Virus record (IMG/VR): IMGVR_UViG_3300003702_000345
Coordinates: 1 to 20,736 of that record
Strand: one strand, 5' to 3'
DNA: 20,736 bases
From: a virus
Shown here in pieces: positions 5,817 through 13,091 of the stretch (its first letter is position 1; each line of letters begins with the position of its first letter). A model generated the notes under the pieces. It had not been told where the DNA came from. It ran no database searches and worked only from the letters and a program-made list of their open reading frames with translations. The translations under genes were made by a program, and so were the position numbers.

Positions 5817-7370
5817 ATGCAAACAATAAATCTTAGTAAAAGAAATAGAGATTACGCTATTTTTTTACCGAGCATCTCTGGTTTTTATAATACCTTCGTT
5901 TCAAAACAACGATATGGGGAGTACGTTCCACATGACCGTATACCTGCTGACTTTGAACATGGAATAGAAGGTTGTAATTTTTTAAACAAAGAAAAAGGTT
6001 ACTTTACATATGACCATGCGTTATATTCTGCAGGTCATGCACAATTAAATATTGACAAAAGTGTTATACAAGAATCTATGGTACAAGAACGAGATAGAGA
6101 AAACACATGGATACTTGGAGACAGTGGCGGGTTTCAAATTGGTAAGGGTGTAATAAATTTTGATTGGCCGCATTTCTGGGAGAAGGAGGGAGATCCAGGC
6201 TATGTAGGTAGTGCTGATAAAGTACGATTAGCAATTCTTAATTGGTTAGAGTATACAGCAGATTATTCAATGATATTGGATATTCCTGCATGGGCGGCAG
6301 ATCCTGTAAATAGAGATCGCACAGGACTTACTAGTTTTAAAGATTGTTTAGAAGGTACAATACATAACTGTGACTTTTTCTTAAAGCATAGATTGGGTGT
6401 AACTAAATTCCTTAACGTATTACAAGGTGGTAATAATACAGAGGCAGACATTTGGTATGATGCTGTAAAACATTATCCATTTGAAGGCTGGGCAATGGGC
6501 GGCAATAACATGCGTGATGTTGACCTTGTTCTTCGACGATTAATTAAATTACGAGATGACAAATTATTAGAACCCGGCTATGATGTTATTCATTACTTGG
6601 GTACAAGCAAATTAGAATGGGCCGTAATTTTAACCTCAATCCAACGAAATTTACGAGAAACAGTAAATAAAGATATAAAGGTTACATTTGATTGTGCATC
6701 CCCGTTTATTGCAACAGCACATGGACAGGTATACACACAGCACGTACATAGAAATGACAGATTTAGTTATATTATGGATAAAGCTGTAGATTCAAAAACA
6801 TTAGCAGGCAGTGACATACCGTTTCCTTGGACTTCTCCGATAGCAGAGAGAATGACAATGGGAGACATTTGTTATTATAAGCCAGGCGATCTTAATAAAT
6901 TAGGTAAGGAAGGAAAAACATCTTGGGATAGTTTTTCATATTTCTTATATATGGCACACAATGTTTATCAACACATGGAGAGTGTACAACGAGCAAATGC
7001 GTTAGCAGATGCGGCATGTGTTATGCATAAACCAAATATCAATGAATGGCGCAAAATTAAAAACAAAAGTGCAGAAGGACAATTTGATGTTTGGACTCCA
7101 CGTGATGTCGTATATATGGTAGAATTAATAAACAATGTATTTAATTCAGAAACACCTTTTGACTTGTTAGATAAAGCAGAAGGTCTCTTAGCAAATTTCA
7201 ATGAAAAGAAAACACTTAAAACAAGTGCAAGTACGTTTAACAGTTTATTTGATTTAGATGAAGTAACCCATAGTAGTGATTCAGAAACTTTCGATGGTAT
7301 ACATGAAGGAGAAGATCGCGCAATGGATATAGCATTAGAAAAATTAGAGGAAGACATAAATGGTATATGA
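5817..7370 (+). CDS. dpdA: DpdA-like DNA guanine transglycosylase (7-deazaguanine insertion)
   Basis: DpdA proteins are relatives of tRNA-guanine transglycosylase that swap guanine in DNA for a 7-deazaguanine base. In this 517-residue protein two catalytic carboxylates are in recognisable context: D102 in GDSGGFQIG and D292 in TFDCASP, corresponding to the acid/base and nucleophile aspartates of TGT. Between them lie a VLQGGNN-type substrate loop (about residue 201), a GWAMGG segment and an LGTSK segment, in the TGT order. I do not see the CxCxxC zinc motif of bacterial tRNA TGTs, and the protein is longer than they are, which favours DpdA. It follows the clamp gene directly and leads a block holding folE, queD and queE relatives. 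The C-terminal 150 residues are unassigned. Confidence 0.85.
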   Translation: MQTINLSKRNRDYAIFLPSISGFYNTFVSKQRYGEYVPHDRIPADFEHGIEGCNFLNKEKGYFTYDHALYSAGHAQLNIDKSVIQESMVQERDRENTWILGDSGGFQIGKGVINFDWPHFWEKEGDPGYVGSADKVRLAILNWLEYTADYSMILDIPAWAADPVNRDRTGLTSFKDCLEGTIHNCDFFLKHRLGVTKFLNVLQGGNNTEADIWYDAVKHYPFEGWAMGGNNMRDVDLVLRRLIKLRDDKLLEPGYDVIHYLGTSKLEWAVILTSIQRNLRETVNKDIKVTFDCASPFIATAHGQVYTQHVHRNDRFSYIMDKAVDSKTLAGSDIPFPWTSPIAERMTMGDICYYKPGDLNKLGKEGKTSWDSFSYFLYMAHNVYQHMESVQRANALADAACVMHKPNINEWRKIKNKSAEGQFDVWTPRDVVYMVELINNVFNSETPFDLLDKAEGLLANFNEKKTLKTSASTFNSLFDLDEVTHSSDSETFDGIHEGEDRAMDIALEKLEEDINGI

Positions 7371-10129: not shown

Positions 10130-10804
10130 ATGTCAGCAATTGCAACAATTATAAAAAAACGAATAGCCAAAGATAAAGGTAAATTCTTTTGTAACGATAA
10201 CATTTCTAAATATATTAAAAATGAAACTGAACTATCTTGGATAGAACGAGATGTTAAAGAAAAACTAGAAGAACTATTAGAGTGTCTTGTTATTGATACA
10301 AAAAACGATCATAACACACAAGAAACTGCCAAACGTATGGCTAAAATGTTTGTACATGAAATATTTCGTGGCAGATATAGAGAACAACCAAAAATAACTA
10401 CATTTCCTAATGCTACAAATTATGATCAACTATATATAACAGGTCCTATTTCTATTAGAAGTACTTGTGCTCATCATTTCCAAAATATTGTAGGCAAAGC
10501 ATACGTAGGAGTGTTTCCTGGCAAGGAAGTAATAGGGTTAAGCAAGTTCAATCGTCTTATACATTGGATTGCAGAGCGTCCACAAATACAAGAAGAAATG
10601 ACAATGCAAATTGCAGACGCTGTAGAAGAAGTAACAAATGCAGATGGTGTTGCTATTGTATTAAGGGCAGAGCATATGTGTATGACACACAGAGGAGTTA
10701 AAGAACACGAATCTGATATGACAACATCTGTGATGCGCGGTGATTTTAGGAACGATCCCGAACTTAAGAAAGAATTTTTAACGTTAATGCAGGAGATGAG
10801 ATAA
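10130..10804 (+). CDS. folE: GTP cyclohydrolase I (FolE)
   Basis: Converts GTP to dihydroneopterin triphosphate, the first step to both folate and 7-deazaguanines. This 224-residue protein, about the family length, carries STCAHH with zinc Cys C113 and H115/H116, the VIGLSKFNRL core, the RPQIQEEMTMQI helix, and HMCMTHRGV with the second zinc Cys C184. The usual CEHH reads CAHH here, so the Glu is replaced while the zinc and catalytic residues remain. Here it most likely feeds DNA modification, given dpdA, queE and queD remnants nearby. It has its own promoter and overlaps the next gene by TAATG. Confidence 0.95.
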   Translation: MSAIATIIKKRIAKDKGKFFCNDNISKYIKNETELSWIERDVKEKLEELLECLVIDTKNDHNTQETAKRMAKMFVHEIFRGRYREQPKITTFPNATNYDQLYITGPISIRSTCAHHFQNIVGKAYVGVFPGKEVIGLSKFNRLIHWIAERPQIQEEMTMQIADAVEEVTNADGVAIVLRAEHMCMTHRGVKEHESDMTTSVMRGDFRNDPELKKEFLTLMQEMR

Positions 10805-11346
10805 TGGCAAGATTAGCGTATATGAATTTTAAGAAATTACTTACACATACACATGACATATGTAGGCAAGTTAATTTAGACGAGTGGCGACCCGATTATA
10901 TAGTAGGAATTACTAGAGGGGGAATGTTACCTGCTAAATTAATTAGTCATTATTATAATCTTCCAATGTATACTTTGGATATTAGATTAAGACAAGATAG
11001 CGGCACTGGACCCGAATCAAATATAATGATGTCACGAGATGCATATGGTTATAATAGAAAAGATCATGAAGTTGGCATATTCAATAGTGCAAAAAATATT
11101 CTTATTGTAGATGATATAAATGACAGTGGTGCAACATTTCTTCATCTACAAAACGATTGGCAAAATAATTGTCATCCGGATGATAAAAGATGGGGAAACG
11201 TTTGGGGGAAGAGTGTTAGGTTTGCTGTTATTGTTGAAAATACATCAAGTGAATTTAAAGGCGTAACATATTATAGTAAAGAAATAAACAAATTGGAAGA
11301 TGATGTATGGATTGTATTTCCTTGGGAAGAATGGTGGACTTTATAA
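10804..11346 (+). CDS. Purine-type phosphoribosyltransferase
   Basis: A type I PRTase of 180 residues. The PRPP-binding loop ILIVDDINDSGATF (about residues 99-112) matches the hhhhDDhxDSGxT signature, IVGITRGGMLPAKLI near residue 33 forms the PPi loop region, and the protein ends with WIVFPWEEWW, like bacterial xanthine/guanine PRTases. It overlaps folE by one base in TAATG, so the two are probably translated together. DpdA releases free guanine when it modifies DNA, and a guanine PRTase would return it to GMP and hence to FolE's substrate GTP. That link is inference, and hypoxanthine or xanthine salvage are alternatives. Confidence 0.85.
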   Translation: MARLAYMNFKKLLTHTHDICRQVNLDEWRPDYIVGITRGGMLPAKLISHYYNLPMYTLDIRLRQDSGTGPESNIMMSRDAYGYNRKDHEVGIFNSAKNILIVDDINDSGATFLHLQNDWQNNCHPDDKRWGNVWGKSVRFAVIVENTSSEFKGVTYYSKEINKLEDDVWIVFPWEEWWTL

Positions 11347-11376
11347 TTGGGTAAGTTTATTCGAACACGGAGGTTG

Positions 11377-11664
11377 ATGTATGATATATATGGTGAGGAA
11401 CCGATTAAAGAAGCATTCGGTGGAATTTTACCTCAGCCAATTGAAGTATTTGAATATGTGAATAAGTGGTTGCCGGGTGAGGGAGAATTAGTATTAAAAG
11501 CAAAAAATGGTAGAGATGGTTTTAAAACATTTAAGAAATTTGAAAAATGGGCAAGGAAAAACGAAATATCCCCATTGCATTATAAATGTATGGCATATGA
11601 TCCTTGTACAATACAGTTTCATAGTAGCGAAGATTTAATTTATGCAAAGTTGTATTGGAGTTAA
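11377..11664 (+). CDS. Small hypothetical protein
   Basis: A 95-residue protein of unknown family. The frame is open back to a TTG at 11347, directly after the phosphoribosyltransferase stop. I prefer ATG 11377 because ACGGAGG lies just upstream, although the spacing is only three bases. It has an N-terminal acidic stretch, a basic helix (GFKTFKKFEKWARKN) and a strand-forming C-terminus ending KLYWS. Function unknown. Confidence 0.65.
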   Translation: MYDIYGEEPIKEAFGGILPQPIEVFEYVNKWLPGEGELVLKAKNGRDGFKTFKKFEKWARKNEISPLHYKCMAYDPCTIQFHSSEDLIYAKLYWS

Positions 11665-11692
11665 TTGACAAACTACAAAAATACTGTATAAT
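11665..11692 (+). promoter_or_regulatory. Consensus sigma70 promoter before the small membrane protein
   Basis: Perfect TTGACA (11665-11670) and perfect TATAAT (11687-11692), 16-base spacer, beginning right after the stop of the 11377 gene. The predicted start, near 11699, coincides with the ATG of the next ORF, so the message would be leaderless for that start. It would also drive the queD remnant and queE. Confidence 0.75.
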
Positions 11693-11698
11693 ATAATA

Positions 11699-11821
11699 AT
11701 GAGTGATCACAACGATTTTCAAAATAAATATGTAGGATATATGATACTAGCATTAGTGCTCAGTGTTGTAGGAATAGGAATAATTGGTTTGATTTATTTT
11801 TCTGTTACTGGGGGATATTAA
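11699..11821 (+). CDS. Small single-pass membrane protein
   Basis: ATG 11699 to TAA 11819-11821 encodes 40 residues: a short polar N-terminus followed by one hydrophobic helix (about residues 13-36, with LALVLSVVGIGIIGLIYF) and a GGY end. It sits directly behind a consensus promoter and overlaps the next ATG by one base. An internal ATG at 11741 with AGGA upstream would give only the membrane segment. Such small membrane peptides are common in phage early regions. Function unknown. Confidence 0.5.
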   Translation: MSDHNDFQNKYVGYMILALVLSVVGIGIIGLIYFSVTGGY

Positions 11822-12236
11822 TGACAGACGAAAAAGAATTCGAAGAATATTTTACTTCAACAAAAAGTTTTTGGAACTTTCCTTGTGCCCATAGACAATA
11901 TAGACATGATGGTAATTGCCATTTAATACATGTCTAGATGAGTTAAAAGCACATTTAGATTATATGTATGATCATACTTTGGTATTAGATGAAGAAGATC
12001 CATATATGCATCTGTTTAAAGAATTAGAAGCAGGTGGTGTATGTAAGATTAGAACACATCCAATGGGACCAGGTATGGAAGGTACAGCACATTATCTATG
12101 TGAATGGACAGACGAGTTTATACGTAATAGAACAAATGGTAGAGCATGGGTTATTAGTGTAGAAGCACGTGAAAACGATAAAAACAGTTCAATCTATGTA
12201 AATCCTGAAGCAGGATTTAAGGGTTGGAAAAAATAA
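11821..12236 (+). pseudogene. queD: queD (6-carboxytetrahydropterin synthase) with internal deletion and frameshift
   Basis: Two adjacent frames carry the two ends of a phage-type QueD. From ATG 11821 the first 38 codons give TSTKSFWNFPCAHRQYRHDG and NCHLIH, the family start with first zinc His and catalytic Cys, then stop at TAG 11935-11937. From about 11928, in another frame, the sequence resumes with LDELKAHLDYMYDHT (catalytic DH pair), GPGMEGTAHYL and RAWVISVEARENDKNSSIY, the family end. The HGY-to-VVDFG segment that I recall between the halves, about 25 residues, is missing at the junction near 11930-11936. The second ORF starts only with TTG (11916). Either a real deletion inactivated queD or the assembly lost about 75 bases. 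Confidence 0.7.
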
Positions 12237-13091
12237 ATGAAGTTCCGTTATACGGAGATTTTTTATAGTGTACAGGGAGAAGGTAAATTTGTCGGAGTAC
12301 CTTCTGTATTCTTACGAATGTTTGGTTGTAACTTTACATGCCAAGGTTTTGGCATGCCTAAAGGAGAATTAAGCACAGAATATTTAGATGTAGATCCTAG
12401 CAATTATAATTCTTTAAACGAACTGCCATTGGTTAGAACAGGTTGCGATAGTTATGCAAGTTGGGATGCACGGTTTAAAGATTTTACAACATCTATTGAA
12501 ACAACAGAAGTAGTAGAAAAATTATTATCATACACACCAAATAATAGATGGATAGAACCAATTGGTGATCAAGATATACATTTAGTTATTACTGGAGGCG
12601 AACCTTTATTACCAGGACAACAACGTAGATGGCCAGAGTTATTTAGGTTGCCAGGTATGGAGAATATAAAGAATGTTACATTTGAAACAAATTGTACACA
12701 ACTACTGCGAGATAGTTTCGTTGATTTTCTTACAGTTGAAGCAGGATTCGAAACAACTTTTTCCTGTAGTCCAAAACTTTCAGTATCGGGCGAGTCTTGG
12801 GATACTGCAATCAATCCTGAAGTTGCATTGGATTACTTTTCTATTCCTGGTAGCAATATGTACTTCAAGTTTGTTGTCGCTGACGAAATTGATATGGCAG
12901 AAGTTGACAAAGCGATTCTCGAATTCCAACATAAGGGTGTTAGTGCGCCTACGTATTGCATGCCAGTGGGTGGCTGTGAAGCTGAGTATATGGAAAATAG
13001 AACGAAAGTTGCGGAAGAATGCCTCAGAAAAGGTTACCGTTACTCGCCGAGATTACATGTAGACTTATTTGGAAATAATTGGGGAACATAA
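12237..13091 (+). CDS. queE: 7-carboxy-7-deazaguanine synthase (QueE), extended cluster loop
   Basis: A radical SAM enzyme contracting 6-carboxytetrahydropterin to CDG. The N-terminus YTEIFYSVQGEGKFVGVPS (residues 5-23) is typical QueE. RMFGCNFTC supplies C31 and C35, but position 38, where the third cluster Cys is expected, is Phe. The expected CDSY appears at C70 after an insertion, so the motif reads C-x3-C-x34-C instead of C-x3-C-x2-C. ITGGEPLL (the SAM-binding GGEP) follows, then FETNCT and SCSPKLSVSGE. At 284 residues it is longer than most QueE proteins, as expected from the insert. It begins right after the queD remnant's stop and overlaps the next gene by TAATG. Confidence 0.9.
   Translation: MKFRYTEIFYSVQGEGKFVGVPSVFLRMFGCNFTCQGFGMPKGELSTEYLDVDPSNYNSLNELPLVRTGCDSYASWDARFKDFTTSIETTEVVEKLLSYTPNNRWIEPIGDQDIHLVITGGEPLLPGQQRRWPELFRLPGMENIKNVTFETNCTQLLRDSFVDFLTVEAGFETTFSCSPKLSVSGESWDTAINPEVALDYFSIPGSNMYFKFVVADEIDMAEVDKAILEFQHKGVSAPTYCMPVGGCEAEYMENRTKVAEECLRKGYRYSPRLHVDLFGNNWGT

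Follow-up and report, generated by a model that had tools for sequence, protein, structure and literature searches.

A queD gene broken by a probably real and recent 76-bp deletion in a T4-like phage fragment

Does a phage fragment in which a broken queD stands directly before an intact queE document a true loss of this gene, and what would such a loss mean for the pathway? Analysed here is a stretch of DNA (the window) that makes up a 20,736-base IMG/VR virus record. This fragment (~20.7 kb) of a larger phage genome carries replication genes of the T4 type, of which one encodes a family B DNA polymerase and another a 5'-3' exonuclease. The closest matches of the polymerase, at less than 50% identity, come from large phages that include Sinorhizobium phage Phosso and Cronobacter phage GAP32; at the DNA level, the phage database gave no match. 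Two relatives (G001 and G002) are collinear with the window at ~88-94% nucleotide identity, with the initial 2 kb and some short gaps as exceptions; the gene of an amidase (PF01510) at 1260-1976 lies in a stretch without DNA-level alignment to either of them. An intact folE encoding GTP cyclohydrolase I (10130..10804, plus strand; PF01227, E 8.6e-52) is followed by a phosphoribosyltransferase gene (10804-11346), a short ORF (11347-11664), a 40-aa ORF, queD and an intact queE (12237..13091, plus strand; phrog_2076, E 2.1e-50), whose start directly abuts the queD stop at 12234-12236.

A reading made from the letters of the window (the sequence-only reading) had described queD as disrupted by the internal loss of about 25 codons, with two well-preserved parts in different frames joined near 11930-11936. 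The N-terminal remnant (11821..11937, plus strand) comprises residues 1-37 and one junction codon, and its translation is MTDEKEFEEYFTSTKSFWNFPCAHRQYRHDGNCHLIHV, that is 38 codons before a TAG at 11935. The C-terminal remnant (11934..12236, plus strand) holds residues 64-163 and the stop codon in the other frame, which is open from TTG 11916 and runs into the remnant. DNA alignment to three relatives (L002, L003 and L004) placed the junction at about 11932/11933 (11932..11933, plus strand), where exactly 76 bases of the relatives are absent between CATG and TCTAG. As 76 bp equal 25 codons and one base, the frame is shifted and the TAG follows immediately; the protein loses 26 residues, 38-63 of the relative's QueD. 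Gene, frames and junction were thus read correctly, whereas the size of the loss is not a whole number of codons. The good preservation of both sides was borne out as well, with 97% identity to the QueD of the closest relatives for either remnant (G002; over 37 residues for the N-terminal part). Judged by homology, both remnants are phage QueD and the match is not due to chance, since this identity is accompanied by a match of the C-terminal remnant to the QueD-like family phrog_2389 (E 4.5e-15).

The junction also bears on how the deletion may have arisen. Short direct repeats had been proposed as a feature to look for in intact relatives, and there is none exactly at the junction, the breakpoints sharing no base with the relatives' flanks; an ATGG repeat whose copies lie 72 bp apart in the relatives' sequence does adjoin it. 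A single homology-free event could have removed the 76 bp, and a two-step origin, in which a repeat-driven loss of 72 bp between the ATGG copies was joined by a small trim of 4 bp, is possible.

The consequences for the protein would be severe. Among the lost residues, 12 are invariant across thirteen intact relatives, and the missing stretch contains a predicted strand (40-49) in the structural model of an intact relative, which is of moderate confidence (pLDDT 69). The nearest solved structure to this relative is QueD2 of Acinetobacter (7v0f), a weak match by structure (E 0.006) that was found by sequence with E 8e-5. C22, H24, C33 and H37 remain in one frame and D76-H77 in the other, with G38 to G62 gone, so that the conserved Cys, His and Asp-His positions that mark QueD/PTPS proteins no longer stand in one protein. 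Of 20 records, 19 matched PF01242 once and above the cut-off; only the window gave no match. From the normal start, translation would now yield a stub of 38 residues, and the C-terminal part alone would be no enzyme. QueD function is very likely lost, because the conserved residues and the strand are missing, PF01242 is unmatched and a slippery sequence that could rescue the frame is lacking.

This last point concerns the reading in which the split is functional and a frameshift or reinitiation yields either two proteins or one shortened protein that still works. Each part is an open frame and still well conserved, and the open C-terminal frame reaches back to TTG 11916, ahead of the stop of the stub. 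However, the two frames overlap by 19 bases only (11916-11934) and no slippery heptamer was found in this overlap, on which ground programmed frameshifting was rejected. The internal starts of the C-terminal frame omit the N-terminal part with the conserved Cys and His. Moreover, recoding is unable to bring back the missing strand or the 12 invariant residues. The sequence-only reading had named relatives with the same two-part arrangement as an observation that would speak against a broken gene. The arrangement was sought in relatives and in other viral contigs and found in none, and a natural split common to the relatives was rejected on this basis. We regard a functional split as hardly credible.

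Is the deletion then a property of a phage or of a library? The two closest collinear relatives have an intact queD, and the QueD frame is uninterrupted in all 40 of the closest relatives. A further 40, more distant relatives included one damaged copy (L058), which carries a different deletion. There, an independent loss of 147 bp (~4888) spans the folE-queD boundary and joins the end of a folE-like gene into queD; its flanks match the intact contig L054 with 100% identity. Such queD deletions are thus found in about 2 of 81 contigs, with either nature or library/assembly as their source. The junction could be an artefact of library or assembly, or could stem from a minor defective variant picked by the assembler, with queD intact in the population. 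This reading draws on the fact that the junction occurs in a single contig and hence in one assembly (no other viral contig contains a 22-mer spanning it), on remnant flanks that are almost free of decay, and on L058, whose comparable and equally unique deletion relative to an otherwise identical contig could just as well reflect junctions born in a library or assembly. On the other hand, the breakpoints offer an assembler no common sequence to join on. Since they lack homology, an assembler is unlikely to have joined them through a repeat, and the junction should be present in some read. Every other aligned gene of the window is in frame against the relatives, and no further disabling indel was seen in the 20.7 kb. 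Noisy sequence is a poor explanation because all these genes are in frame and the two closest relatives are collinear at 90-94% nucleotide identity, and a noisy long-read assembly was rejected for want of a second broken gene in the window. In addition, there is a clean insertion upstream at the same locus, which indicates that the region is truly variable. Taken together, an artefact or minor variant has a small but appreciable chance of being the explanation, and the window probably records a real, recent loss-of-function deletion in queD of a T4-like phage. The damage is real-looking and of an ordinary kind. In that case a molecule with the deletion would have existed in nature, and the loss of 76 bp would have taken one predicted strand with conserved residues, shifted the frame and left no QueD activity.

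The upstream region deserves a description of its own. A sigma-70-like promoter (TTGACA-16-TATAAT, matching 12/12; 11665..11692, plus strand), common to the window and L003, lies ahead of the 40-aa membrane-protein ORF (11699..11821, plus strand) and queD; the stop of the ORF overlaps the queD start (TAATG). Being too short to be searched singly, this ORF was searched as an alignment. It is missing at the queD start in G001 and G002. An ORF with 76% identity stands in the same place before queD in L030 (90-200), and L032 has upstream sequence as in L030 yet lacks the ORF. The ORF hence occupies the exact queD-start position in two separate lineages and is missing from a close relative of each. 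Like a small cassette, it may have been acquired or lost at one set position.

The age of a real deletion can be approached through the remnants. With L004 as outgroup, changes in the queD remnants were counted on the branches leading to the window and to L003. Synonymous changes number 7 on the window branch and 11 on the L003 branch, nonsynonymous changes 4 and 1. On a wholly neutral branch, four or fewer nonsynonymous changes out of 11 would be expected with P about 0.001, although these counts are low and a stretch of 11 bases holds three of the four nonsynonymous changes of the window branch. The counts indicate that most of the window branch passed under purifying selection and that the deletion looks young; it would be recent because the changes on the window branch show selection until lately. 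A recent event had also been proposed by the sequence-only reading, and both the nearly undecayed flanks and these counts agree with it. Against G002, dN/dS is 0.17 for folE, 0.20 for queE and 0.04-0.08 for the TGT-like gene described below, values that cover the whole time since divergence and are silent on selection after the deletion.

The product of queD acts early in the synthesis of a modified DNA base, and what its loss would mean for the pathway depends on the other genes. That the phage keeps folE, queE and dpdA while it depends on host QueD had been part of the earlier interpretation. FolE and QueE are indeed present and intact, in line with 7-deazaguanine DNA modification. For dpdA the picture is mixed. 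The protein encoded by an intact gene at 5817..7370 (plus strand), which has a DSGGFQ motif, matched no family model (Pfam, PHROG, NCBIfam, PADLOC), and Foldseek with its model (pLDDT 55) gave only TGTs among the 50 matches listed, with E from 2e-6. It is likely a divergent DpdA, because its predicted fold matches tRNA-guanine transglycosylases. In the Pseudomonas phages PA5oct and Paride, its relatives carry the annotation hypothetical. Neither the window nor 18 of its 19 relatives yielded a QueC, these records being incomplete.

Dependence on host QueD does not follow from a 20.7-kb fragment, as queD lies tens of kilobases away in some relatives. Among queE-bearing records, 11 of 20 without an adjacent queD show no queD on the contig. 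In another contig of only 6 kb (L090, 1-353), a queE 80% identical to that of the window has no queD in front. With a real deletion, the activity could come from another, unlinked queD in a part of the genome that lies beyond the fragment, and the remnant would then have been free to decay. This reading, which overlaps with the pathway options of a real deletion, is consistent with the fragmentary contig and with relatives that encode both FolE and QueE, for example G028, in which queD (34.8 kb) and folE (100 kb) are ~65 kb apart. However, in lineages where queD adjoins queE, a single PTPS gene was found per large contig (103-323 kb), and G002 (53 kb) likewise has only one, so that we consider a second copy improbable.

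Host supply of the QueD step is plausible because many hosts of such phages have queuosine genes (PMC6884629). In bacterial and archaeal genomes, the search for close relatives of the C-terminal remnant, meant to point to the host, gave one distant match only. That the phage truly lacks QueD and that FolE, QueE and the TGT-like enzyme are kept under selection with host QueD bridging the gap is a rather doubtful combination. If the deletion is real, the pathway could be dead, could continue with host QueD or from a later intermediate of the host, or could use another queD located beyond the fragment. The fragment is compatible with host supply, a second copy or a dead-end variant alike and cannot choose among the three, because relatives may carry queD far from folE and queE.

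When a middle gene is broken in a modification cluster that is otherwise intact, this would amount to a natural test of how far phage and host can share the steps of base modification. As seen, it is one more case of decay of an accessory phage gene, in a single metagenome contig, and a caution that host dependence cannot be inferred from a genome fragment. By sequence, both remnants resemble phage QueD (phrog_2389; PTPS PF01242; 6-carboxy-5,6,7,8-tetrahydropterin synthase), from which the copy in the window differs by the loss of 26 residues and of the frame and by the absent PF01242 match. With the phage 7-deazaguanine DNA modification genes folE, queD, queE and dpdA (Hutinet et al. 2019, PMC6884629), the window shares folE, queE and a TGT-fold gene, all within one region. 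In contrast to those gene sets its queD is broken, and its TGT-like gene is too divergent for the models and resembles DpdA by fold. Mycobacterium phage Bipper has been reported without queC (PMC6884629), like 19 of the 20 records here, and a phage in which only queC is missing is thought possibly to use 7-carboxy-7-deazaguanine (PMC6884629). Group 3 phages lack preQ0 genes and may use host intermediates (PMC6884629). The phage of the window would be alike if the deletion is fixed and there is no second copy, but unlike group 3 it would have lost one middle enzyme only, and recently, with the neighbouring genes intact.
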